In this document: piece after piece, positions 5,195 to 33,089 of the stretch
Numbering within the stretch: position 1 is the stretch's first letter
How the letters are laid out: each line of letters opens with the position of its first letter
NCBI RefSeq assembly: GCF_002909235.1
Contig: NZ_PHQQ01000007.1
Coordinates: 124,001 to 188,000 of the forward strand
Source of the DNA: Arenibacter catalasegens
GTDB taxonomy: Bacteria; Bacteroidota; Bacteroidia; Flavobacteriales; Flavobacteriaceae
Direction of reading: 5' to 3'
DNA: 64,000 nt
The notes under the pieces: generated by a model
Told to the model about the DNA's origin: nothing
Database searches by the model: none
Seen by the model: only the letters and a program-made list of their open reading frames with translations
Program-made: the position numbers and the translations under genes

Positions 5195-5235
5195 GTGGAT
5201 TAGTTTGGATAAACCGTTTAAATCAATAAATAGAC

Positions 5236-6792
5236 CTAGAGTCCAGCGGCCGCAGCCTCAGCACAGCGCTCACCGTCCATGGCAGCCGATACGATGCCCC
5301 CAGCGTAACCGCCACCTTCTCCACAGGGAAACAGCCCTTTGATTTCCGGATGTTCCAAATTTTCCTTTCTAGGAATGTTTACGGGTGATGAGGTTCTGGA
5401 TTCTACACCAATAACATTGGCCTCCGCGGTGTAATAGCCTCTCATTTTTTCGCCAAATGCGGTAAAACCTGAACGCAGCCTACTACCGATCAATTTGGGC
5501 AATAGCGAATGTAAAGGTGCGGATTTTAGACCAGGTTGATAAGAGGTCGGATTTAGATCTTTGGACAGCTTTCCTTCCACGAAATCTGTAAGTCGTTGTG
5601 CAGGAGCGGTTTGGTTTCGTCCACCTGAGGTAAAAGCCAATCGCTCTAGATCCTTTTGATATTCCAACCCTTTCAATGGGCCAAAGTGTTCATATTTATG
5701 GATATCTACATCCACATTGATCTCCACCACAATTCCTGAATTGGCGAATAAGTTATTGCGTTTGGAAGGCGACATACCGTTTACGACCACCTCCCCAGGA
5801 GCGGTTGCGGCGGGAACTATGAATCCTCCCGGACACATACAAAACGAATATACCCCTCTATCCTTAACCTGCTCTACTAGACTGTAGGAGGCGGCAGGGA
5901 GCAACTCGTTCCTGTCCCCAGAACAATGGTATTGAATGCTATCTATAATATGTTGTGGATGTTCTACCCGAACACCCATGGCGAATGATTTAGCTTGTAG
6001 GGCAATTTTTTTATGGTGTAACAAGTAATATATATCCCTTGCGGAATGGCCTGTTGCCAAAATAACCCTTTCTGCAGACAGTTCCCTGCCATCTCCCAAA
6101 ACGATTCCTTTAATAGAATTATTAACGATCTTAAAATCTACTACCTTCGATTCAAAGTGTATTTCTCCTCCATATTTTAAGATGGTCTCCCTAATATTCT
6201 GTACTAATTGGGGTAATTTGTTAGTGCCTATATGTGGGTGGGCATCTATTAGGATCTGTTCTGTAGCACCGTGAAAGACCAAATTCTCGAATATTCTTCG
6301 TACATCCCCCCTTTTTAGGCTTCGGGTATACAATTTGCCGTCAGAGTAGGTGCCGGCACCACCTTCGCCAAAACAGTAATTAGAATCTTCATTTACCAAA
6401 TGATCTCTGTTGATGGCTTTTAAATCGCGTCTGCGGTCCTTAACATTTTTCCCCCTTTCCAGGACTATAGGTCTATAGCCCAATTCTATACAGCGCAAGG
6501 CGGCATACATGCCTGCTGGACCAAAACCTATAATGTGAATTTCCTTGGCTTTGGAAACATCCTTATAATCAAAGTTATAATCATTGGTCTTAGGGCCTGG
6601 CTCGTTAATATAAACCGAAACCTTATAATTGAAGTATATGGTAGATTTCCGTGCATCGAGAGATTTCCGAAGCACTTTTATTGTTGAAATTTCTTGACTG
6701 GGGACTCCCAAATATTTTGCAGCTTTCTTTTTCAGGATATCTTCTACCGATTCTTCCATTAAAGTGGTCCTGAGCTGAATGTTTCTTACCAT
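5236..6792 (-). CDS. FAD-dependent dehydrogenase (COG2509-type)
   Basis: This 518-residue cytoplasmic flavoprotein has an N-terminal alpha/beta region (about 1-80), a Rossmann FAD-binding motif GFGPAG at 89-94 (IHIIGFGPAGMYAALRC), a glycine-rich middle (GEGGAGTYSDGKLYTR) and the C-terminal FAD signature FPCGEGGGYAGGIVSAAMDG. This layout matches the family annotated as uncharacterised FAD-dependent dehydrogenases, which is widespread in Bacteroidota; the substrate is unknown. The promoter region holds a perfect 20-bp palindrome that overlaps the -7 box, so expression is probably controlled by a dimeric regulator. The start at 6792 is supported by the ATG lying just after that -7 box, giving a nearly leaderless mRNA. 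Confidence 0.88.
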   Translation of the reverse strand: MVRNIQLRTTLMEESVEDILKKKAAKYLGVPSQEISTIKVLRKSLDARKSTIYFNYKVSVYINEPGPKTNDYNFDYKDVSKAKEIHIIGFGPAGMYAALRCIELGYRPIVLERGKNVKDRRRDLKAINRDHLVNEDSNYCFGEGGAGTYSDGKLYTRSLKRGDVRRIFENLVFHGATEQILIDAHPHIGTNKLPQLVQNIRETILKYGGEIHFESKVVDFKIVNNSIKGIVLGDGRELSAERVILATGHSARDIYYLLHHKKIALQAKSFAMGVRVEHPQHIIDSIQYHCSGDRNELLPAASYSLVEQVKDRGVYSFCMCPGGFIVPAATAPGEVVVNGMSPSKRNNLFANSGIVVEINVDVDIHKYEHFGPLKGLEYQKDLERLAFTSGGRNQTAPAQRLTDFVEGKLSKDLNPTSYQPGLKSAPLHSLLPKLIGSRLRSGFTAFGEKMRGYYTAEANVIGVESRTSSPVNIPRKENLEHPEIKGLFPCGEGGGYAGGIVSAAMDGERCAEAAAAGL

Positions 6793-6796
6793 AGCG

Positions 6797-6820
6797 CAAA
6801 ATTACTTTAATTAAAGTAAT
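6797..6820 (-). promoter_or_regulatory. -7 box overlapping a perfect 20-bp palindrome
   Basis: The minus strand has TAATTTTG at 6804-6797, an exact TAnnTTTG box. It shares bases with the perfect palindrome ATTACTTTAATTAAAGTAAT at 6801-6820. The ATG of the FAD dehydrogenase is at 6792, about 4 nt past the box, so the transcript would have almost no leader. A repressor bound to the palindrome would block the promoter directly. Confidence 0.6.
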
Positions 6821-6864
6821 TATGTATTCAAAAAGTGCTTAGGCTTGTCCCTGAATTTTTGGAT

Positions 6865-7734
6865 TCATTGAACTTCATATTCCTTTTTATAGGACATGGG
6901 AGTTCTTTTGGTAATTGTCTTAAACTGTTTGTTGAAATTGGACAAGGTTTGAAAGCCGCTATCATAGCAGGCCTGACCAACATTCATTTTGTCTTCGATC
7001 AATAGTTTGCAGGCATAGCCAATTCTAATCTCACTTAAAAATTCGGAAAAGGTCTTATTGGCGTGGATCTTAAAATACCGGCTAAAAGAGGTAGGGGTCA
7101 TATTGGCCAAGGAAGCTACAGTGCCTAGCGCTATTTTTCCTTTAAAATTCTTCATTACATAAGCGTGTACATCATTCATTCTTTCAGTATCTCCCTCTTT
7201 TAAGGAGTTGGTATAGCCTGGGCTGGCCAATAGGGTAGTTTCCGTTGTGATGGACAGACCGTTTAAGATTTTAAACAATTCCAAAACACTGTCCATACCT
7301 TCAAGATGTATAAGCTTGTTCATCATAATTCGAATGGAATTAGCGGTTTTGCCCGTAATATCCAATCCCCTTAAGCTCTTTTGAAACAACTGCCGTAGTT
7401 TAATCATTTCTTCCTTTTGTAAAAGACTGCTGCCAATAAAATCCTCGTGGAAGTACACTACAATTCCTTCAGACCACGAATTTTTCTCTACCCTCATACC
7501 TTCATTGTCACTACGCCACATATGCGGTAAATTGGGACCTGTAAAGGTGATGTCCCCTTCCTTATAATGTTTTACGTGATCGCCTATAAACCGTGTGCCA
7601 CTGCCTTTTAATACCAGAAATAGTTGATATTCCGGATGAAAATGCCAAATAGGGTCAAAATTGGGTTGTCTCAATATTTTGGCAATAAAGGCATGGGAGT
7701 TTGGAATGGGTGATTTTTGTAAGGCAGATTTCAC
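6865..7734 (-). CDS. AraC-family transcriptional regulator with cupin sensor
   Basis: This 289-residue cytoplasmic regulator has an N-terminal cupin-like ligand-binding region, about 20-110 (IWHFHPEYQLFLVLKGSG, FTGPNLPHMWRSD), and a C-terminal AraC double helix-turn-helix, about 190-285 (VASLANMTPTSFSRYFK and ACYDSGFQTLSNFNKQFK, then the usual PMSYKKEY ending). The start is a GTG at 7734. It is transcribed away from the sugar oxidation operon that begins at 7929, with a 194-bp shared control region. Control of that operon by this regulator is a reasonable inference from position. The effector is not known. Confidence 0.92.
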   Translation of the reverse strand: MKSALQKSPIPNSHAFIAKILRQPNFDPIWHFHPEYQLFLVLKGSGTRFIGDHVKHYKEGDITFTGPNLPHMWRSDNEGMRVEKNSWSEGIVVYFHEDFIGSSLLQKEEMIKLRQLFQKSLRGLDITGKTANSIRIMMNKLIHLEGMDSVLELFKILNGLSITTETTLLASPGYTNSLKEGDTERMNDVHAYVMKNFKGKIALGTVASLANMTPTSFSRYFKIHANKTFSEFLSEIRIGYACKLLIEDKMNVGQACYDSGFQTLSNFNKQFKTITKRTPMSYKKEYEVQ

Positions 7735-10900: not shown

Positions 10901-11435
10901 GGCAGGAGATTGGAAATATGAAGTGGAGTTGGATTTTTCCAAATCAGCAAAGAACCTCTTTGCTGATAAGTCTATACCGGAACTCTTGGCAGAAACCTAT
11001 ATTAATGAGGTTGAATTGGGTGCGGATAATAGTATGGATAATGGTTCGAATGCCATTGTTGTTAATATCAAGACTATTAAAAACGAAATGAAGTACGATC
11101 TGACCGAATTTGTGGTGGAGGCTGGCAAAGCTGTAGAGTTGGTGTTTGAGAACACAGATTTTATGCAGCACAATTTAGTCATTACCAAAACCGGTGAAAA
11201 GGAAAAAGTGGGCATGGCCGCCGATAAATTGGCAATGGACCCTAATGGTGCAGAAAAAAATTATGTCCCTGATATGGCTGAGGTGCTTTTTGCCACCGCC
11301 ATCATAAACCCTGAAGAAAAGGTTGTATTAAAATTCATAGCTCCCAAAGAGCCAGGAGATTACCCATATATCTGCACCTTTCCTGGCCATTGGCGAATAA
11401 TGCAAGGTGTTATGAAGGTTGTCAAGGCAAAATAG
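7929..11435 (+). CDS. large lipoprotein: ThuA + PVC-type dehydrogenase propeller + HEAT + jelly-roll + azurin-like copper domain
   Basis: This is an 1168-residue lipoprotein (lipobox LMGC, lipidated Cys21). Domains in order: ThuA-like, about 37-240 (RRIEMLFLGHALEHH, FIPIHCASFC, GKVFYTAYGHDERTW); a six-bladed dehydrogenase propeller of the PVC membrane-bound type, about 285-655 (FKLELFASEPNIINPIAMNW, DTNGDGKAD, KGRVWRIMP); HEAT-like helices, about 660-850; a galactose-binding-like jelly roll, about 865-1000 (IWFRKNIDVP, VYINGEFVGG, GKNSIAVRVEDTG); and a cupredoxin, about 1040-1168. The cupredoxin has His1081, Cys1149, His1154 and Met1158 in CTFPGHWRIM, the azurin ligand pattern. Related proteins often end in a haem c domain with CxxCH; no CxxCH is present here. 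A periplasmic sugar or glycoside oxidation role, with electrons leaving through copper, is inferred. It leads the operon with the next two genes. Confidence 0.88.
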   Translation: MNTLQARFFCLLFVFITLMGCNSSKEKKKDDQPRRIEMLFLGHALEHHNSKVYMPILASALTKSGINITYTEEVEDLNPENLALYDGVIIYANHENRFPEQEKALLDYVAEGHAFIPIHCASFCFHESEEYVDLVGGQFKAHGTDTFTANIIDKSHPIMQGIEEFSTWDETYVHDKLAKDITVLMERVEGEHHEPWTWVKQFGKGKVFYTAYGHDERTWNQPGFQNLIKEGILWAVSDQVKKNWQEFSISIPSLSYTEMANIPNYEKRDPAPKYQLPLSPEESAKLIQVPAGFKLELFASEPNIINPIAMNWDEKGRLWVIETVDYPNTVRDDKGDGDDRIKICEDTNGDGKADKFTVFADKLNIPTSFTFVNGGILVSQAPYFLFLKDTDGDDIADVKKIAISGWGVFDTHAGPSNLQRGIDNDIYGVVGYSGFKGAISGENFEFGQGIYRFNRDYGNFEFLTNTSNNTWGLGITEDNSIFASTANNTHSVFMGIPNKNLRVEMGVSLKGSAKIDGHYNMSPITQNIRQVDVFGGFTAAAGHHFYTARTFPKQYWNKYAFVCEPTGGVVHIAKIEKNGAGYIEKDGGNLMASSDEWVSPVEAKVGPDGAVWVLDWYNFIIQHNPTPKVDRGGYDAVNGAGNAYENPLRDKSKGRVWRIMPKDKQEVKSLSLDKADSKGLVKALSNDNMFWRMTAQRLLVENGNTDVVPNLIKLVQNTDVDALGLNPGALHGLWTLDGLGVISANAEAMEVVKSALYHPSGSVRKAAIQILPKNKTVDALLLKANLLNDKDPEVQLTALIYFSEREANNEVGGLLFELSQNKEIVADEWLAKAIYVAGSKHHQGFIKAFKTAKPEFEIGSVDKIERQASDFNDSKWETMLLPQLIEDAGLQIDGIIWFRKNIDVPSGSADKSGIIALGPIDDSDKVYINGEFVGGTEKDYQANRVYQIPSGVLKPGKNSIAVRVEDTGGGGGIWGKKEQMFLKTGQFSVSLAGDWKYEVELDFSKSAKNLFADKSIPELLAETYINEVELGADNSMDNGSNAIVVNIKTIKNEMKYDLTEFVVEAGKAVELVFENTDFMQHNLVITKTGEKEKVGMAADKLAMDPNGAEKNYVPDMAEVLFATAIINPEEKVVLKFIAPKEPGDYPYICTFPGHWRIMQGVMKVVKAK

Positions 11436-11476
11436 ACGTTATAATGACCTCTATATTTTTAAAGTATCTAATTGTA

Positions 11477-11502
11477 AAATAAGTTATTGGTGTAACTTAT
11501 TT
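11477..11502. repeat. 10-bp inverted repeat before the sugar isomerase gene
   Basis: AAATAAGTTA (11477-11486) and TAACTTATTT (11493-11502) are exact reverse complements around a 6-nt spacer, in the 84-bp gap between the large lipoprotein and the isomerase. The A+T-rich stem has no long U-tract. It may be an operator, an internal processing hairpin or an intraoperon attenuator; the sequence alone does not decide. Confidence 0.5.
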
Positions 11503-11519
11503 AAAGTAACTGTTTTAGA

Positions 11520-12377
11520 ATGATAAAAGATATAAAATACGGTGTAAGCACCTGGCTTTGGGAATCACCGTTTAACTCACAATCCATTGCCCTGTTCCCC
11601 AAAATTAAAAAAATGGGGTATGATTTGGTGGAAATCCCAGTAGAAGAGCCGGATTTGATTAATGGGGAGGTCATAAAAAAGGCATTGAAAGACAATGGGC
11701 TACAAGCGGTTGTTTGCGGAGCCTTTGGACCAACAAAGGATCTGACCCATGAGGATACCGCAGTACATCAAAATTGCTTCAATTATATTGAAAAATGTTT
11801 CCAGCTATGTAATCTGTGGGGGGTAGATTTTTTGGCGGGGCCCATGTACGCTGCGGTAGGCAAGGCTCGAATGCTTCCTCAAGAAGAAAGGAAACGGGAG
11901 TGGGACCTAGCGGTGAGTAATGTTGCCAAGGTTTGTGCAATGGCCCAGGATTTTGGGATGTCTATAGCTTTGGAACCGCTAAATCGTTTTGAATCCGATA
12001 TGGTCAATACCGCTGAGGACGTTATGCGTTTTATTGCAGATGTCAACCATAATAGAGCCAAGGTGTTATTAGATGGATTTCATATGACCATTGAGGAAGG
12101 GAATATTGCAGAAGCTATAAAAACGGTAGGAGACAAGTTGATACATGTTCAGGTTTCGGAGAACCACAGGGGAATCCCTGGGTCTGGATTAACACCTTGG
12201 GCAGATTTTGCAGAGGGCTTAAAGGCTGTAGATTATAAAGGAGCAATAGTGATCGAGAGCTTTACACCTGAAATCAAGGAATTGGCTGGAGCGGTATGTA
12301 TATGGAAAAATTTGGCCAAGAGCCAGGACGAATTCGCCTCCCAAGGGATCGATTTTTTAAAGAAGACATTTAATTAA
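11520..12377 (+). CDS. sugar phosphate isomerase/epimerase (xylose isomerase-like TIM barrel)
   Basis: This 285-residue enzyme is of the AP endonuclease 2/xylose isomerase-like TIM-barrel family, which includes D-tagatose/D-psicose 3-epimerases. Features seen: YGVSTWLWESPFNSQS at the start, the metal-binding Glu in IALEPLNRFE at about residue 160, VLLDGFHMTIEEG with Asp and His, IHVQVSENHRGIPGSG, and a last Glu in IVIESFTPE. These match the usual Glu-Asp-His-Glu metal site. It sits 12 bp before the Gfo/Idh/MocA gene and 84 bp after the ThuA protein. It is likely to act in the cytoplasm on a sugar released or oxidised by the first gene product. The specific substrate is unknown. Confidence 0.9.
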   Translation: MIKDIKYGVSTWLWESPFNSQSIALFPKIKKMGYDLVEIPVEEPDLINGEVIKKALKDNGLQAVVCGAFGPTKDLTHEDTAVHQNCFNYIEKCFQLCNLWGVDFLAGPMYAAVGKARMLPQEERKREWDLAVSNVAKVCAMAQDFGMSIALEPLNRFESDMVNTAEDVMRFIADVNHNRAKVLLDGFHMTIEEGNIAEAIKTVGDKLIHVQVSENHRGIPGSGLTPWADFAEGLKAVDYKGAIVIESFTPEIKELAGAVCIWKNLAKSQDEFASQGIDFLKKTFN

Positions 12378-12389
12378 AAATAGGATAAG

Positions 12390-13523
12390 ATGAATAGTAA
12401 GAAAATAAACATCGCCATTGTGGGCTTGGGATTTGGAGCAGAATTTATTCCGATCTACCAGAAACATCCAAACGCTAATTTAGTGGCAATATCCCAAAGG
12501 AACCCGGACAAATTAAAGGAGTTGGCGGATTTATTTAATATAGAAAAAAGGTATACTTCCTATGATGAACTTTTGAAGGACCCAGATATAGATGCAGTCC
12601 ATATAAATACGCCTATTCCGGATCATGGAATTCAATCTATTAAGGCCTTAAAGGCGGGCAAACATGTGGCCTGTACAGTACCTATGGCCACAACTGTGGA
12701 AGAATGTGAGGAAATAGTGCGTTTAACGGAAGAAACCGGACTCACCTATATGATGATGGAAACCGTAGTTTATGCTAGGGAATTTCTGTATATGAAGGAG
12801 TTGTACGAAAAAGGTGAATTGGGTAAAATACAATTTTTGAAAGCCAGTCATCAACAGGATATGGACGGTTGGCCCAATTACTGGCCAGGGTTACCGCCAA
12901 TGCATTACGCGACACATTGTGTTGGTCCGGTTCTGGCACTCACTAGAGGGGAAGCTGAGTATGTTTCCTGTTTTGGGTCGGGAACTATACGAAAGGAGTT
13001 AATACCTCATTACAACTCGCCATTTGCCGTGGAAACCACTCATATTAAATTTCGAAATTCAGACTTAAGCGCACAGGTGTATCGTTCGCTTTTTGATGTG
13101 GCCAGACAATACCGTGAAAGCTTTGAAGTATACGGGTCAAAGAAGTCGGTAGAATGGCCCTTGATCGAAGGGAAGCCATTGGTGGTGCATACGGCCAAGA
13201 AGGAGGAGAGTGAAATCCCAGAGGAAGTGGAAAGTCCTGATTTCGCAAAATTATTACCAAAAGAAATACAACATTTCACAACTAAAGGCGTGTACGATTC
13301 TGATGAGCACCAACACCTGTCATTTACACAGGGAGCCGGACATGGTGGGTCGCATCCACATTTGGTACACGAATTTATAGATGCACTTGTTCAGAAAAAA
13401 GCGCCTTATCCGAATGCTAAGCAGTCTGCCAATATCACCTGTGTCGGGATTTTAGCACATGAGTCGGCACTTAAAGGGGGTGAAATTATTAGGCTGCCTG
13501 AGTTTACTTTATCTAGTAAATAG
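12390..13523 (+). CDS. Gfo/Idh/MocA-family oxidoreductase
   Basis: This 377-residue NAD(P)-dependent oxidoreductase has an N-terminal Rossmann fold with GLGFGAEF at about residues 12-19 (IAIVGLGFGAEFIP), the family's EKP-type motif region altered to GKHVACTVPMATT at about 90-102, and a C-terminal alpha/beta domain with a run of His near the end (HGGSHPHLVHEFIDAL) that may form part of the active site. The usual catalytic Lys of the EKP motif is replaced here (CTVPMA), which is also seen in some family members. The family oxidises or reduces sugars, inositols and 3-keto sugars. With the sugar isomerase and ThuA-containing lipoprotein it forms a sugar oxidation operon; a 3-keto-sugar intermediate is a reasonable hypothesis. 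It ends the operon; the RNA array follows. Confidence 0.9.
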   Translation: MNSKKINIAIVGLGFGAEFIPIYQKHPNANLVAISQRNPDKLKELADLFNIEKRYTSYDELLKDPDIDAVHINTPIPDHGIQSIKALKAGKHVACTVPMATTVEECEEIVRLTEETGLTYMMMETVVYAREFLYMKELYEKGELGKIQFLKASHQQDMDGWPNYWPGLPPMHYATHCVGPVLALTRGEAEYVSCFGSGTIRKELIPHYNSPFAVETTHIKFRNSDLSAQVYRSLFDVARQYRESFEVYGSKKSVEWPLIEGKPLVVHTAKKEESEIPEEVESPDFAKLLPKEIQHFTTKGVYDSDEHQHLSFTQGAGHGGSHPHLVHEFIDALVQKKAPYPNAKQSANITCVGILAHESALKGGEIIRLPEFTLSSK

Positions 13524-13655: not shown

Positions 13656-13663
13656 TAATTTTA
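13656..13663 (+). promoter_or_regulatory. -7 box of small RNA copy 1
   Basis: TAATTTTA differs from TAnnTTTG in the last base only. It lies exactly 3 nt before the conserved TTCATAAGTAAGAC start of the RNA unit, the same spacing as in copies 2 and 3. No clear -33 element was recognised. Confidence 0.5.
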
Positions 13664-13666
13664 ATA

Positions 13667-13758
13667 TTCATAAGTAAGACTTAAAAAATAAGTTGTTTGT
13701 TAAAAAACCTATTTTTTAACTTTTAAAAGAGGACGTAGGGGTGCGTCCTCTTTTTTTT
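13667..13758 (+). ncRNA. predicted two-hairpin small RNA, copy 1
   Basis: The unit opens with TTCATAAGTAAGAC. A first AU-rich stem can form between 13683-13692 and 13709-13717 (AAAAAATAAG with CTATTTTTT, one bulged A), and an alternative hairpin GTTAAAAAA/TTTTTTAAC lies inside it (13699-13707, 13712-13720). The second hairpin, AAAAGAGGACG (13725-13735) and CGTCCTCTTTT (13744-13754) with loop TAGGGGTG, is a strong intrinsic terminator followed by a T run to 13758. No open reading frame of useful length fits. The layout (promoter box, stem, terminator) and repetition in three copies support an independently transcribed RNA. Confidence 0.75.
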
Positions 13759-14056
13759 ATTTTAATAGGCCCTACTCTTGTAGTCAACTCCTATTTCTCA
13801 CAACTAACTTTTAGCGGTAAATGCAAATTATTAAAATATTTGTCTTTATTGTCTAGCGCTGGCCCCATCTTCCTATTTATCGATTATCCATTTTTCTAGA
13901 ATTAATATAGCGCTGCAAGAGTTAAATGTTCTTTCGAATGTTAATTTACAAAGTGTATACCCTAAATGGTTTACATATAAATTTAGCTTAGCGTCATATT
14001 AAGCGATTGAGTCAATTTTCTTTTTTAAACAGAACCTTTAACTGGTAATCAGCATC

Positions 14057-14064
14057 TACATTTG
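14057..14064 (+). promoter_or_regulatory. -7 box of small RNA copy 2
   Basis: TACATTTG is an exact match to TAnnTTTG and lies exactly 3 nt before the conserved TTCATAAGTAAGAC. Transcription would start at or next to that conserved sequence. Confidence 0.6.
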
Positions 14065-14067
14065 TTG

Positions 14068-14152
14068 TTCATAAGTAAGACTTGAAAATTAGGTATAAGA
14101 CAACCTATTTTTTAACTTTTAAAAGAGGACGTAGGGGTGCGTCCTCTTTTTT
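14068..14152 (+). ncRNA. predicted two-hairpin small RNA, copy 2
   Basis: Same layout as copy 1. It begins TTCATAAGTAAGACTTG. The first stem pairs AAAATTAGGT (14085-14094) with ACCTATTTT (14103-14111), one bulged T. The terminator hairpin AAAAGAGGACG (14121-14131), loop TAGGGGTG, CGTCCTCTTTT (14140-14150) is identical in sequence to copy 1. The middle of the unit differs from copies 1 and 3, but the first stem is kept, with G-C pairs here where copy 3 has T-A pairs. Confidence 0.77.
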
Positions 14153-14336
14153 ATTTTAATAGGCCCTGCTCTTGTAGTCACCTCCACTTTTTCACAACTA
14201 ACTTTTAGCGGTAAATGCAAATTATTATAATATTAGTCTTTGTTGTAAACTGTTGTCTCACGCTGGGCTCAACTTTATATTTATCGTTAGAGTTAATTTT
14301 TTTTCGAAAAAGATGTTTTCGTAGGGGAATTAATGT

Positions 14337-14344
14337 TAATTTTA
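14337..14344 (+). promoter_or_regulatory. -7 box of small RNA copy 3
   Basis: TAATTTTA, as in copy 1, lies exactly 3 nt before the conserved TTCATAAGTAAGAC of copy 3. Confidence 0.5.
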
Positions 14345-14347
14345 ACA

Positions 14348-14435
14348 TTCATAAGTAAGACAGAAAAATAAGTTTTCTAAAGAAACTATTTTTTTAAATT
14401 TTAAAAGAGGACGTAGGGGTGCGTCCTCTTTTTTT
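14348..14435 (+). ncRNA. predicted two-hairpin small RNA, copy 3
   Basis: It begins TTCATAAGTAAGACAG. The first stem pairs AAAAATAAGTTT (14364-14375) with AAACTATTTTT (14383-14393), one bulged A, and is the longest of the three. The terminator hairpin AAAAGAGGACG (14403-14413), loop TAGGGGTG, CGTCCTCTTTT (14422-14432) is again identical, with a T run to 14435. The loop of the first hairpin differs in all three copies, while the terminator loop is invariant. Confidence 0.77.
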
Positions 14436-14554: not shown

Positions 14555-14847
14555 ATGCAAAAAATCATATTGATTATTATAGCTATGATAGTTAATCAAT
14601 TGGCGTCCGGACAGGATCAAAGTGAAACACGAGATCAATGTGGCTTAAATTCAGTATTTCAAAGTTGTAATGAAGAGGCGGCAGACCTAGAAATGCTTTA
14701 TCGGGAACTCGTTGTTAGAGAAAAGGTGCTGACTCCCTTGTAGTAGACTTAGATCAGTGGTGGGAACTTTTTGCTAACTTTAAACCAAGAGGGTTGCCCG
14801 CCGTCAAAATTGGAAAACTTATGGCACAGTCCACTTATAAACCGTAG
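14555..14847 (+). pseudogene. small secreted protein gene, probably frameshifted
   Basis: An ATG at 14555 opens a 62-residue frame with a signal peptide (MQKIILIIIAMIVNQLASG) and a Cys-containing stretch (QCGLNSVFQSCNEEAADLE), ending at TAG 14741-14743. A second frame overlaps it and continues to TAG 14845-14847 with coding-like sequence (DSLVVDLDQWWELFANFKPR, then GLPAVKIGKLMAQSTYKP). Joining the two by one shift between about 14719 and 14740 would give a protein of about 97 residues. I do not recognise a family for either part. Either this is a broken gene, a real short secreted peptide of 62 residues, or a sequencing error. It lies 13 bp upstream of the LytS kinase gene. Confidence 0.45.
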
Positions 14848-14860
14848 AAAATTATTGTGA

Positions 14861-16198
14861 ATGATACGATTTATTAAACATTTGGGTAATGCATTGTTTT
14901 TAGGGACTTTGATATATTTAATATTTCTTGCCGTTTATTTTTTTATGGGAAAATTTGATAGCGGCTTCACCTATCAACGTGCTGTGGAGGAATACTATGG
15001 CAATTTAATTTTCGCTGTAATTCTATATATGGTCAATGCGTATTGGATTCAGTTCCTTATAATTAAATATAAAAATCAGTTTTACCGAAGTAAACGCCTT
15101 TTGTTAGGTTTTTTCGGAAATATTCTACTCTCCTTGGCAGGGATTTTTTTGTCACGCCTAATTTTAGTGGTGGGAATCGAAAAAATGCCGTTATCTGATT
15201 TTTTAAATGCTGAGAAATTGGAGTATTATAAGTTTTCACTCTTACTTGCTGTTCTAATTTCTGTTATATTTTATTTAGCATGGTATTTTAAGTATCGCCA
15301 GGAAAACAAGGTAAAGGAACAGAAAATAATTGCAGGTACCGCCTCTGCCAAATTCGATGCGCTTAAAAATCAATTGGACCCCCATTTTCTTTTTAATAGC
15401 TTAAATGTGCTTAGCAGTTTAATTGAAGAGGACCCGGAACAGGCACAAAAATTTACGACTTCCCTTTCAAAGGTATATCGCTATGTTTTGGAACAAAAGA
15501 ATAAGGACTTGGTAACTGTGGATGAAGAGCTTGCTTTTGCAAAAACTTATGTACGATTATTAAAAATGAGGTTTGAGGACAGTATAGTTTTTGATATCCC
15601 TGAGCAGGGCAGTGGACTCGAAACAAAAATAGTACCGTTGTCCCTTCAGTTGTTGTTGGAAAATGCTGTAAAGCATAACGTTGTTACCTCCACCAAGCCT
15701 TTGCGTATAAGTGTGTATGAAGAAGGAGGGATGCTGTGTGTGTCCAATAATTTGCAGGAAAAGCAAGTAGTTAAAAAAAGTAGTGGAGTTGGACTTCGAA
15801 ATATACAGGAACGATATCAGATTTTATCCAACAGGGAAGTGCAGATTCAAAAAACGGCGTCAGACTTTACGGTTAAACTCCCTGTGCTGAGCCAGAAAAT
15901 AGGTGTTGTGGAAACACATAAAACATTCTTAGAGGATAAGCGGTATCAAAAAGCAAAAGAACAGGTTGAGGCCGTCAAAGGTTTTTACGGAAATCTTATT
16001 TCCTATTGTGTGGTATTGCCGGTTTTGGCTATCGTTAATTATAATACCACCGGTTTTCCATGGGTGATTTTCCCCGCTGCAGGCTGGGGATTTGGTGTTG
16101 TCGTTCACGGAATGGAGGTTTTTGGTTATAATCCACTGTTGGGGAAAAACTGGGAGGAAAGAAAAATTCAAAAATATATGGATGATGAAAATTTTTAG
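14861..16198 (+). CDS. LytS-type sensor histidine kinase with C-terminal 2TM domain
   Basis: This is a 445-residue membrane kinase. It has four predicted transmembrane helices in the first 150 residues (for example FLGTLIYLIFLAVYFFMG and FSLLLAVLISVIFYLAWYF), a His_kinase domain with DPHFLFNSLNVL and phosphoacceptor His175, and an ATP-binding region (LLLENAVKHN, SSGVGLRNIQERY). After about residue 360 a 2TM domain is fused (RYQKAKEQVEAVKGFYGNL, two hydrophobic segments, WEERKIQKYMDDENF). The same 2TM domain follows as three separate genes, and a LytTR regulator closes the operon, so kinase and regulator are almost certainly partners. The signal sensed is unknown; the 2TM proteins may modulate the kinase in the membrane. 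Confidence 0.93.
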   Translation: MIRFIKHLGNALFLGTLIYLIFLAVYFFMGKFDSGFTYQRAVEEYYGNLIFAVILYMVNAYWIQFLIIKYKNQFYRSKRLLLGFFGNILLSLAGIFLSRLILVVGIEKMPLSDFLNAEKLEYYKFSLLLAVLISVIFYLAWYFKYRQENKVKEQKIIAGTASAKFDALKNQLDPHFLFNSLNVLSSLIEEDPEQAQKFTTSLSKVYRYVLEQKNKDLVTVDEELAFAKTYVRLLKMRFEDSIVFDIPEQGSGLETKIVPLSLQLLLENAVKHNVVTSTKPLRISVYEEGGMLCVSNNLQEKQVVKKSSGVGLRNIQERYQILSNREVQIQKTASDFTVKLPVLSQKIGVVETHKTFLEDKRYQKAKEQVEAVKGFYGNLISYCVVLPVLAIVNYNTTGFPWVIFPAAGWGFGVVVHGMEVFGYNPLLGKNWEERKIQKYMDDENF

Positions 16199-16287
16199 GG
16201 TACAATCCATCCCTATTATTCAACAGTTCATAAGTTTCTTTTTGAAGTAGTGAAGCTATGTCTTGAAATTTGAAATAAAAATGGATC

Positions 16288-16590
16288 ATGGAAAATTTGG
16301 ATAAGGAAAGTAAATATTATAGGGCCAAGGAGAGAGTGGGAGCTATTAAGAAATTCTATTTGAACCTAGTTTCTTATCTTATTTTTATATTGTTCCTAGC
16401 TGCCTTAAATTACTATATCAACAAATGGGAGTATGCCTGGTTCTTGTGGGCGGCTTTCGGTTGGGGAATTGGATTGGTTTTTCAGGCAGTGAAAGTCTTT
16501 GGATTAAACCCATTCTTCGGAAAGAATTGGGAGGAACGAAAAATAAAAGAGTTTATGAAGGAAGATGAGCCGCAAAATAAATGGAAATAA
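16288..16590 (+). CDS. 2TM domain protein 1
   Basis: This 100-residue membrane protein consists only of a 2TM domain: an N-terminal basic helix (YYRAKERVGAIKKFYLNLVS), two transmembrane segments (LIFILFLAALNYYINKW and FLWAAFGWGIGLVFQAVKVF) and a C-terminal amphipathic tail (GKNWEERKIKEFMKEDE). The conserved features are the FYxNL/Y start, a WG.G..F/H motif in the second helix, and the WE.R.I..(Y/F)M tail, all shared with the kinase C-terminus and the next two genes. It is 89 bp after the kinase and overlaps the next gene by 10 bp. The function of the domain is not known; a role in signalling with the LytS kinase is inferred from gene context. Confidence 0.88.
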   Translation: MENLDKESKYYRAKERVGAIKKFYLNLVSYLIFILFLAALNYYINKWEYAWFLWAAFGWGIGLVFQAVKVFGLNPFFGKNWEERKIKEFMKEDEPQNKWK

Positions 16591-16919
16591 TGGATTTGGA
16601 AAAGGATAAAAAATTGGAGCGAGCCAGAAAGCAGGTTAAGGAATTAAAGGGGTTTTATGTTCATTTGAGCGTTTATCTTGCGGTTAATCTACTAATTACT
16701 ATAGTTGAAATTACAGAAAAAATGGGTCGGGGGGAGACCTTTTTTGAGGCTTTCCGAGATTTTGGAACTTTTGCTATATGGCTGTTTTGGGGTATTGGAT
16801 TGGTGTTTCATGGTTTAAAGGTCTTTTCCTGTAGTCCGTTTTTTAACAAGGAATGGGAAGCAAGACAGATTCAAAAGTATATGGATAAAGAGAAAAGGGA
16901 ATCTGAAAAATATAAATAA
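16581..16919 (+). CDS. 2TM domain protein 2
   Basis: This 112-residue membrane protein of the same family has N-terminal RARKQVKELKGFYVHLSVYL, transmembrane segments at about residues 28-45 and 66-90 (FAIWLFWGIGLVFHGLKVF), and tail KEWEARQIQKYMDKEK. A charged loop (EITEKMGRGETFFEAFRD) between the two helices is longer than in the first copy. Its start overlaps the end of the previous gene by 10 bp and its stop overlaps the next start by 1 bp, which indicates translational coupling within the operon. Confidence 0.88.
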   Translation: MEIMDLEKDKKLERARKQVKELKGFYVHLSVYLAVNLLITIVEITEKMGRGETFFEAFRDFGTFAIWLFWGIGLVFHGLKVFSCSPFFNKEWEARQIQKYMDKEKRESEKYK

Positions 16920-17242
16920 TGGAAATGGATAAACACTATTTTGGAAAATACATGCTAGCAAAAAAACGGGTGGACAATCAAAAGAACTTTTATGCCCATA
17001 TTGTAGTTTATTTGGTTATGAACGTTCTTCTTTTTTTCTTTAAAGGAAAAATTATAAACTTTTTTCTAGATAGAGGAGTTAGCGATCAAGGATTTCTAAA
17101 TTGGATGGAATGGAATATTATTTTAATTCCGGTTCTATGGGGAATTGTATTATTGGTCATTGGAATATACTTGTTCAAATTAAAACCTTTTATTTTTAAA
17201 AATTGGAAGGAAAAACAAATTCAAAAATACATGGAAGAATAG
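16919..17242 (+). CDS. 2TM domain protein 3
   Basis: This is the 107-residue third free-standing 2TM protein: YFGKYMLAKKRVDNQKNFYA, then two transmembrane segments (about 27-42 and 66-86) and the tail FKNWKEKQIQKYMEE. It diverges more from the others: the second helix has LIPVLWGIVLLVIGIYLF and lacks the WG.G motif's second Gly. It starts within the TAATG junction of the previous gene and ends 3 bp before an upstream in-frame start of the LytTR regulator. Function is inferred only from association with the LytS/LytTR pair. Confidence 0.85.
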   Translation: MEMDKHYFGKYMLAKKRVDNQKNFYAHIVVYLVMNVLLFFFKGKIINFFLDRGVSDQGFLNWMEWNIILIPVLWGIVLLVIGIYLFKLKPFIFKNWKEKQIQKYMEE

Positions 17243-17290
17243 GGAATGCCTAAATTAACCAAGCAACATAGAAGTAACTTGTCCACACAG

Positions 17291-18046
17291 ATGAACGCAA
17301 TTATAATTGAAGATGAAAAACCAGCTGCAAGAAGATTGGGTCGCTTATTGGCCAATTTGAAGGTAGAGGTCTCTACCATGCTTTATTCCGTTGAAGAAGC
17401 CATAGTTTGGTTTAGGGAAAACAAACATCCGGAACTAATTTTTTTGGATATTCAGCTTTCTGACGGACTTTCGTTTGAGATTTTTGAAGCTATTGATATA
17501 CAAAGTTCGGTGATTTTTACGACGGCTTATGATGAATATGCATTGCAAGCATTTAAGTTGAATAGCATTGATTATTTGTTAAAACCAATCGATGATGAGG
17601 AGTTGGAAATTGCCGTAAAAAAGTACCTTTCCTTTCGACCTGTAAAACAGAAAATGTCGCTCGATTTTGAAGATATAAAGAAGTTGTTGGTGAACCCCCT
17701 GGAACGTGAATATAAAAAGAGGTTTACGGTAAGTGTAGGGCAGCATTTAAAAATTATTAATGCTGATGAAATAGAATGCTTTTACAGTGAGAACAAAGGC
17801 ACTTATGCTTCCACTATTGATGGCAGAAATTATCTTCTGGATCTTACTTTGGAAAACTTGGAATCAGAACTACACCCCAAATCATTTTTCCGGGTAAGTA
17901 GGAAATTTTATATCAACATTAGTCATATAAAAGATATTGTTTCCTACACGAATTCTAGGCTTGAAATTAAACTAAATCGGTTTAAGGGGCAAGAAATTAT
18001 AGTTAGTAGGGAAAGAGTAAAGGACTTTAAGTTTTGGTTAGAATAA
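17291..18046 (+). CDS. LytTR-family response regulator of the LytS/2TM operon
   Basis: The receiver domain occupies residues 1-120, with acidic residues Glu7/Asp8, phosphoacceptor Asp53 in IFLDIQLSDG, Thr77 (VIFTTAYDEYA) and Lys98 in LLKPID. The LytTR DNA-binding domain is at about 150-250 (AdEIECFYSENKGTYAST-like stretch, FFRVSRKFYINI). I chose the ATG at 17291 (MNAIIIEDEKPAARRLG) because the receiver starts directly there. An earlier in-frame ATG at 17246 would add 15 residues with no homology to the family and would begin 3 bp after the previous stop. It is the last gene of the operon and the natural output of the LytS kinase at 14861. Its target genes cannot be read from the sequence. Confidence 0.93.
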   Translation: MNAIIIEDEKPAARRLGRLLANLKVEVSTMLYSVEEAIVWFRENKHPELIFLDIQLSDGLSFEIFEAIDIQSSVIFTTAYDEYALQAFKLNSIDYLLKPIDDEELEIAVKKYLSFRPVKQKMSLDFEDIKKLLVNPLEREYKKRFTVSVGQHLKIINADEIECFYSENKGTYASTIDGRNYLLDLTLENLESELHPKSFFRVSRKFYINISHIKDIVSYTNSRLEIKLNRFKGQEIIVSRERVKDFKFWLE

Positions 18047-32705: not shown

Positions 32706-32840
32706 ATGAGAGGAGATGCCAATACCTTAATTTACTTCATTGCGGCTGTTATTGTCTTACATTTTTTTGTTGATCTTATTTGGGTGGCCTATAAACTAAA
32801 TAAAAAAAAGGACGGTGATACTTCGGAAAAAAAGTATTAG
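32706..32840 (+). CDS. possible small membrane protein (44 residues) upstream of the B12 riboswitch
   Basis: ATG at 32706 opens a 44-codon frame with an N-terminal transmembrane helix (TLIYFIAAVIVLHFFVDLIW) and a basic tail (YKLNKKKDGDTSEKKY). It lies in the gap between the divergent btuF and btuB units, about 40 bp before the riboswitch. It is not a recognised family. Its location suggests a possible B12-related accessory role, but no direct evidence supports this. The size and layout are like the frame at 22609. Confidence 0.5.
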   Translation: MRGDANTLIYFIAAVIVLHFFVDLIWVAYKLNKKKDGDTSEKKY

Positions 32841-32879
32841 TTTCGCAGCGAATTTTGGTTTTTATTCTCTTAGTTTAGG

Positions 32880-33045
32880 AGGATAGGATTAAAAGGGAAT
32901 TCGGTGAGATTCCGAAACTGTTCCCGCAACTGTGAGCTTAATCCATGTATAATGGATGGCTATCATTTCTTCTAATACCACTGCCCTACATTTGAGGGTG
33001 GGAAGGTAAATGATAGTACGCAAGTCAGGAGACCTGCCATATTCA
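32880..33045 (+). ncRNA. cobalamin riboswitch controlling btuB
   Basis: The conserved elements are present in order: AAAGGGAATTCGGTGAGATT (the GGTGNGATTCC region) at about 32892-32911, CCCGCAACTGTGAGC at 32923-32937, a long hairpin arm with TATCATTT and AAATGATA (32961-32968, 33008-33015), and the B12 box GTCAGGAGACCTGCC at 33024-33038. It lies directly before the btuB start at 33090. The 3' end CCATATTCA (33037-33045) is an exact complement of TGAATATGG (33085-33093), which contains the start codon, so translational control by start-site sequestration is likely. Confidence 0.95.
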
Positions 33046-33089
33046 TCACTAAATAGAATAGATCTTCGGGCAAAAGGGTCTTCTTGAAT

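Follow-up and report, generated by a model that had tools for sequence, protein, structure and literature searches.

Candidate small RNAs of Arenibacter and other Flavobacteriaceae whose 5' end is complementary to start codons of some genes for exported proteins

Three repeated units between a sugar-oxidoreductase and a kinase operon

A 64,000-nt stretch of the genome of Arenibacter catalasegens (hereafter the window) contains, flanked by operons for a sugar oxidoreductase and a kinase, three units of approximately 84 to 91 nt (13667-13758, 14068-14152, and 14348-14435), each of which begins with the same 14-nt 5' start, TTCATAAGTAAGAC, continues into an AU-rich first hairpin whose sequence differs between copies, and ends in a 30-nt terminator hairpin that is identical in all three (Table 1). 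Exactly 3 nt 5' of TTCATAAG, the units carry a box that reads TAATTTTA, TACATTTG, and TAATTTTA in copies 1, 2, and 3, respectively. An initial annotation of this DNA had described three units with a common 5' end, an AU-rich first stem, and an identical terminator, each with its own TAnnTTT(G/A) box 3 nt upstream; the units were confirmed by re-reading, repeat comparison, and folding, and the box was found at a fixed place in 72 promoters aligned without gaps. With regard to the surroundings, the annotation correctly placed sugar and kinase operons on the two flanks, with the correction that a 62-aa ORF (14555-14743) separates the array from the kinase gene. This ORF has a signal-like start and no Pfam match, and relatives of it (tblastn, 42-63% identity) occur in some Arenibacter loci.

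Table 1. Positions in the window of the predicted sRNA genes, their signals, and the adjoining operon
Feature	Position	Strand	Basis or remark
Predicted sRNA copy 1 (5' end UCAUAAGUAAGAC, AU hairpin, terminator)	13668..13758	+	Start inferred from fixed -10 box distance
Predicted sRNA copy 2	14069..14152	+	Repeat comparison, fold; matched in 18/18 genus genomes
Predicted sRNA copy 3	14349..14435	+	Repeat comparison, fold
Terminator hairpin copy 1, GGGG loop	13725..13754	+	Pattern search, covariation
Terminator hairpin copy 2, GGGG loop	14121..14150	+	Pattern search, covariation
Terminator hairpin copy 3, GGGG loop	14403..14432	+	Pattern search, covariation
-10 box TAATTTTA, copy 1	13656..13663	+	Position -12 to -5
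-10 box TACATTTG, copy 2	14057..14064	+	Position -12 to -5 in promoter alignment
-10 box TAATTTTA, copy 3	14337..14344	+	Position -12 to -5 in promoter alignment
GTCAA upstream element, copy 2, at -58	14011..14015	+	GTYAA-like element of promoter alignment
GTTAA upstream element, copy 3, at -57	14292..14296	+	GTYAA-like element of promoter alignment
Adjoining operon (2TM-domain histidine kinase, three 2TM proteins, LytTR response regulator), possible regulator of the array	14861..18046	+

A 22-nt core of the terminator, searched with up to three mismatches allowed, occurs three times in the window and in none of 100 shuffles. The units fold more stably than dinucleotide shuffles (z of -3.5, -5.1, and -4.5 for copies 1, 2, and 3), and the predicted folds show two hairpins per unit, with the first 8-14 nt unpaired. 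Copies 1 and 2 are part of a longer duplication (89% identity over 186 nt) that extends beyond the terminator. None of the three predicted RNAs contains an ATG; a coding repeat, one of the outcomes that the initial annotation had held against its own reading, was excluded, and no transposon end was seen. Also in line with that annotation, which had recognized no named RNA family here, Rfam 15 at gathering score returned nothing on the array and tRNAs only on 12 homologous loci; its match in the window was a cobalamin riboswitch elsewhere (RF00174, 103 bits, 32839-33055). Look-alikes in Rfam (ctRNA_pT181, STnc370, the L20 leader, and others) were rejected because they scored far below their gathering scores and rested on AU-rich stretches and terminators. 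Searches of the open-licence literature turned up no publication that describes this RNA.

Distribution, structure and promoters of the family

With copy 2 as the query, matches were obtained in 18/18 Arenibacter genomes examined, at 1-6 per genome (one of the three in G004 being 22 nt only and without a match in further search), and the same architecture was found in Zobellia, Pricia, Euzebyella, Pareuzebyella, Aurantibacter, and one record labelled Cytophaga; in the scan of named genomes, 26 of 36 stretches were judged real on reading and 10 were judged chance. A covariance model built from 40 Arenibacter copies (R1) matched 21/397 genomes of the family Flavobacteriaceae at E <= 0.01, seven of which were false on reading (L060-L065 and L067, ordinary terminators without the 5' end). 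A second model (R2) of 61 copies, i.e., the 65 R1 matches minus three antisense matches and L101, also matched 21/397 family genomes, at E <= 0.001 and in 13/237 genera, including two genomes of genus g180 without a clear 5' end. Among 395 genomes drawn from across the phylum, R2 matched five, all of them Flavobacteriaceae, and one of these (G601, L152) was rejected as an ordinary terminator without the 5' end. The filters of these large searches were strict and true numbers of homologues may therefore be higher. In the two g180 genomes (G196 and G369) the GGGG terminator is present and the UCAUAAGU start is not clear; this genus has GGGG-loop terminators in adjacent pairs whose stems follow the usual pattern (L146, L147, L319, and L328), perhaps a divergent branch of the family. 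A homologue in G054 (L141) has an altered 5' end, UUCAUGAGUAGGUU, which predicts target start codons of the form AACCTACTCATGA.

Across the family, two near-constant parts, the 5' end UCAUAAGU and the GGGG loop, stand amid variation. Alignment A3 was made from 44 rows, minus the spurious L083:3342 and L101:509 and two near-duplicates in L036. In the model-fitted alignment, 99.7% of the cells of the terminator stem are paired and 8/12 pairs have changed on both sides; the terminator scores 0.309 for covariation, whereas shuffles reach 0.169 and slid positions of the stem no more than 0.125. Around the loop, at least 8/9 pairs form on GGGG in 38/40 copies (the count used 38/40 rows, because of additional loop bases in L059 and L101), and more than one type of standard pair is seen at every one of the nine loop-flanking stem positions. 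The initial annotation had named homologues with compensatory changes as its own test, and such homologues exist, with the covariation located in the terminator stem. As for the first stem, which had been credited with compensatory changes, copies folded singly support it (z < -1 in 33/37 distinct Arenibacter copies, mean -2.3), but the consensus from RNAalifold, run on 40 copies aligned with MAFFT, lacks it, the hairpin not being alignable by sequence. The invariant G-rich terminator loop of the annotation holds as to the constant GGGG; because the closing positions covary in relatives, a GGGG tetrad closed by U-G and A-U pairs is the better description of the loop.

The promoters of 41 Arenibacter and 31 other copies, anchored at TCATAAG and aligned without gaps, have a box of the TAnnTTTG type at -12 to -5, the place reported for this box in Flavobacterium psychrophilum in the available part of the source (PMC9723704). 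By comparative sequence, each copy is probably its own transcription unit, with a TAnnTTTG promoter, a start at UCAUAAGU, and its own terminator. Taken with the homologues, the fixed -10 position supports the proposal of the initial annotation that these are small RNAs with separate promoters, and on comparative sequence evidence the array units are a real family of predicted RNA genes that is unlisted in Rfam.

An extra copy lies beside rteC in five Arenibacter genomes (L023, L027, L030, L037, and L040), where the predicted sRNA is convergent with rteC and located between it and an integrase-sized gene. The other flank of these copies is a 406-aa gene, which was identified as a tyrosine integrase in all three cases that were scanned, with a tRNA beyond it in three loci; the rteC-adjacent copies thus look like part of an integrative island. 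Plasmid and phage collections gave no match to the sRNA, and the terminator pattern was not found in viral contigs. RteR is an sRNA of CTnDOT that is encoded beside rteC on this conjugative element; the island copies are likened to it by neighbourhood alone, and most copies of the family, unlike RteR, are away from rteC.

Start-codon complements and CCC hairpin loops

The reverse complement of the 5' end of the predicted sRNAs contains ATG. The list of exact CYTACTTATGA sites in nine genomes that carry the sRNA and represent eight genera has 78 entries, as compared to 44 for the reversed pattern; eight sites in sRNA genes were left out of the examination. The 71 distinct sites examined comprised 11 in sRNA genes and 60 others, and in 18/60 of the latter the ATG is the start of a long ORF, while the same rule applied to shorter patterns in the DNA around the examined loci gave starts in 35/379 sites for TTATGA and 3/68 for CTTATGA. 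Almost all of the 18 genes encode exported proteins; by a crude rule, 16/18 of the putative target proteins have a signal-like N-terminus, versus 106/264 other starts. Recurring groups include lipoproteins of the SCSKDTDLL type (G243, Aurantibacter, Pricia, G177, and Zobellia), two of which have a pectate lyase-like part that falls short of the family cut-off, Q(D/E)IPxxY proteins (Aurantibacter, Pareuzebyella, and Pricia), and Ig_7 proteins (Pricia and Zobellia); an SprB-repeat protein, an OmpA protein, and a fucosidase occur once each. Among the lipoprotein genes the 11-nt site is kept and upstream sequences differ, and the site also occurs in unrelated genes. At position 10, sites facing an sRNA with G have C in 13 cases and T in one, and those facing A have C in one and T in three, so that this base follows the sRNA between genera (p = 0.019, from few sites, and orthologous sites are not independent). 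In one Zobellia locus (L361), two SCSKDT(D/E)LL lipoprotein genes lie a few kb apart on the - strand (5234-7039 and 11374-13434), with 12-nt and 8-nt complements of the sRNA at the start codon.

In the A. catalasegens genome itself, the 14-nt complement is not enriched (47 sites versus 72 for the reversed pattern), and start codons account for two of the 27 complement loci read. Twelve further Arenibacter genomes yielded 59 listed sites for CTTACTTATGA, six of which are in sRNA genes and were not examined; 10/39 non-sRNA sites were start-like. Four of these 10 belong to one TAT-exported oxidoreductase that is present in G015 too, and a TonB-dependent receptor of G004 has a 13-nt seed match; three further sites belong to an 83-aa ORF (L259, L282, and L310) that was discounted, its ATG being at the end of a signal-like stretch. 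In the nine genomes picked as sRNA-negative, 11/40 sites were start-like, which is not below the proportion in the positives (p = 0.48). G028 and G035 together account for six of the 11, and five of these six belong to the gene groups named above; the other seven control genomes had 5/32, a split made after seeing the data. No sRNA was found in G028 and G035 among up to 107 candidates scored per genome, and none of eight pattern matches there is an sRNA gene. Neither the expectation that sRNA-negative genomes lack sites nor the expectation that G028 and G035 carry the sRNA was thus borne out.

CCC is found within 40 nt upstream of 17/24 C-type start sites (14 from sRNA-bearing and 10 from control genomes), as compared to 26/161 other genes and 8/32 non-start sites. 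It falls in a hairpin loop (P >= 0.5) in 11/20 leaders, a picked set without three Arenibacter sites and six one-off control-genome sites, versus 4/161 genes; shuffles of the leaders that keep CCC place it in a loop in 16.5% of cases, and p-values are optimistic because orthologues are not independent. Counted over all start-like sites, the loop occurs in 8/18 in sRNA-bearing genomes and in 4/11 in control genomes, with all four of the latter in G028 and G035. Among the gene groups, most lipoproteins and both Ig_7 orthologues have the loop, as do L162 and L207, whereas the Q(D/E)IPxxY, SprB, OmpA, and fucosidase genes lack it. None of the 10 start-like sites of the 12 further Arenibacter genomes has it in the standard 45-nt frame; for the G004 TonB-dependent receptor, P is 0.98 in a 53-nt leader and 0.02-0.03 in the 45-nt frame. 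In an 800-kb Zobellia stretch, 17/547 genes have a CCC loop. The reciprocal test on these 547 genes was negative, in that CCC-loop leaders pair no better with the seed (p = 0.98) and the number of genes with seed matches of at least 7 nt is not unusual (31/200 permuted seeds gave at least as many).

Possible function, related systems and control of the array

We lean towards the reading that the family consists of paralogous trans-acting sRNAs that pair over start codons and block translation initiation, with docking on CCC in some mRNAs, and on balance we think it probable that the 5' end does pair with start codons. Each copy would be transcribed from its own promoter, start with UCAUAAGU, and stop at its own terminator; the single-stranded 5' end would form at least 11 nt of pairing that spans the start codon (5'-CYUACUUAUGA-3') in a limited number of mRNAs encoding secreted and surface proteins, the translation initiation of which would be blocked, and the sRNA may thereby switch off what the cell displays outside. 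The presence of CCC in leader hairpin loops suggests that the GGGG loop may kiss it, and in some mRNAs the constant terminator loop would dock upstream of the start codon. The G-rich loop had initially been taken for the part that binds targets; the evidence favours the 5' end first, with the loop as a possible second contact. Because the CCC loop is missing in Arenibacter, our confidence in both the start-codon and the kissing reading is slightly lowered. A more specific version, which we hold to be rather improbable as a whole, is a two-handed sRNA whose GGGG loop kisses the CCC leader loop while its 5' UCAUAAGU(A)RG covers the start codon. Such an RNA would need neither Hfq nor an RRM protein as chaperone and would be a conserved switch by which marine Flavobacteriaceae control adhesins, glycan-degrading lipoproteins, and related exported proteins.

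Other explanations account for part of these data. The RNAs might pair with different real targets, the start-codon matches being kept for another reason, e.g., as translation-initiation signals; the persistence of the sites in G028 and G035 despite the failure to detect an sRNA there, the negative reciprocal test in Zobellia, and the thin set of Arenibacter targets all fit this explanation, but an 11-nt site common to unrelated genes, and a base 10 that tracks the sRNA between genera (at few sites), do not, and we consider it unlikely. We give a similarly small probability to a sponge, of which the copies would titrate an RNA-binding protein via the constant 5' end and GGGG loop, with mRNA pairing secondary. 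Multi-copy arrays, a constant hairpin loop on a covarying stem, and complementary sites without global enrichment would all be expected of such an RNA, although its constant 5' end would not be expected to match start codons of recurring genes, and neither RRM_1 nor Hfq, the two RNA-binding proteins to which the search was limited, was found in the A. catalasegens genome. Finally, tandem copies and the rteC-adjacent island copies in five genomes could suggest a mobile or passive repeat (a terminator-bearing unit or island cargo) without regulatory function, which is very improbable given the fixed spacing in 72 promoters, the covarying terminator stem, the place beside the kinase gene kept in 18/18 Arenibacter genomes, and the lack of matches in plasmid and phage collections or of the terminator pattern in viral contigs.

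The closest parallels are FopS and GibS, sRNAs of Bacteroides thetaiotaomicron. As described in the available part of the source (PMC11697453), they belong to the same phylum, are multi-copy, have their own sigma-ABfr promoters and a Rho-independent terminator at the end, and carry a constant single-stranded 5' seed for sites near start codons of surface-protein mRNAs (SusC). The present family likewise combines multiple copies (1-6 matches per genome), a constant unpaired 5' seed, and a terminator. By contrast, its seed sequence is another one, and FopS, which binds the RRM protein RbpB, consists in that description of a 5' stretch and a terminator hairpin without the first hairpin of the array units (PMC11697453). 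RRM_1 (PF00076) was not found in the A. catalasegens genome; the control search found it in Bacteroides ihuae. The array has no match in Rfam that would indicate likeness to FopS in sequence, and the Rfam copy used may lack a FopS model. Rfp18 of F. psychrophilum is also an independent flavobacterial sRNA, and its predicted targets are secreted proteases and an adhesin; according to the available text it is predicted to pair through one stem-loop, the third of at least three, whereas folding of the array units gives two hairpins, a comparison made by description only (PMC9723704). The bipartite kissing complex of OxyS and fhlA in Escherichia coli, known here from part of a study concerned with Hfq (PMC2946933), similarly joins one sRNA to two separated mRNA sites through loop contacts, with initiation blocked at one, unlike the array sRNA, whose contacts would be the linear 5' end on the start codon and the terminator loop. 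Hfq (PF17209) was not found in the A. catalasegens genome; the control search found it in 5/14 named genomes.

Flavobacteriaceae are major marine polysaccharide degraders whose post-transcriptional control has been little studied, and Rfp18 is the one experimentally tested flavobacterial sRNA that we found in the open-licence literature. A readable start-codon code gives named candidate targets in Zobellia, Pricia, Aurantibacter, Pareuzebyella, and possibly Arenibacter. If true, the preferred reading would imply control by base pairing in an organism whose genome has yielded neither Hfq nor an RRM protein, and a terminator loop acting as a second seed, matched by CCC leader loops, would be an unusual rule of target recognition.

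With regard to control of the array itself, 49/72 promoters have a GTYAA-like element at -56 to -60. For a second half-site 21 bp further on, the match in the 25 anchored promoters from other genera is 0.51, with 0.22-0.41 at spacings of 10-31 for comparison; 23 anchored Arenibacter promoters show no peak at 21 bp. A copy adjoins the kinase gene of the 2TM/LytTR operon in 18/18 Arenibacter genomes and in one other genus, and the LytTR regulator AgrA binds direct repeats centred near -60, according to the available part of the source (PMC4227749). Because of this synteny and the 21-bp half-site spacing in other genera, we propose, as a hypothesis only, that the LytTR regulator of the neighbouring operon might control the array. 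The operon has serial 2TM domains (PF13239; window 14861-17242), one of which is fused to the histidine kinase, and in this region three separate small 2TM proteins follow in a row and are succeeded by the LytTR regulator.
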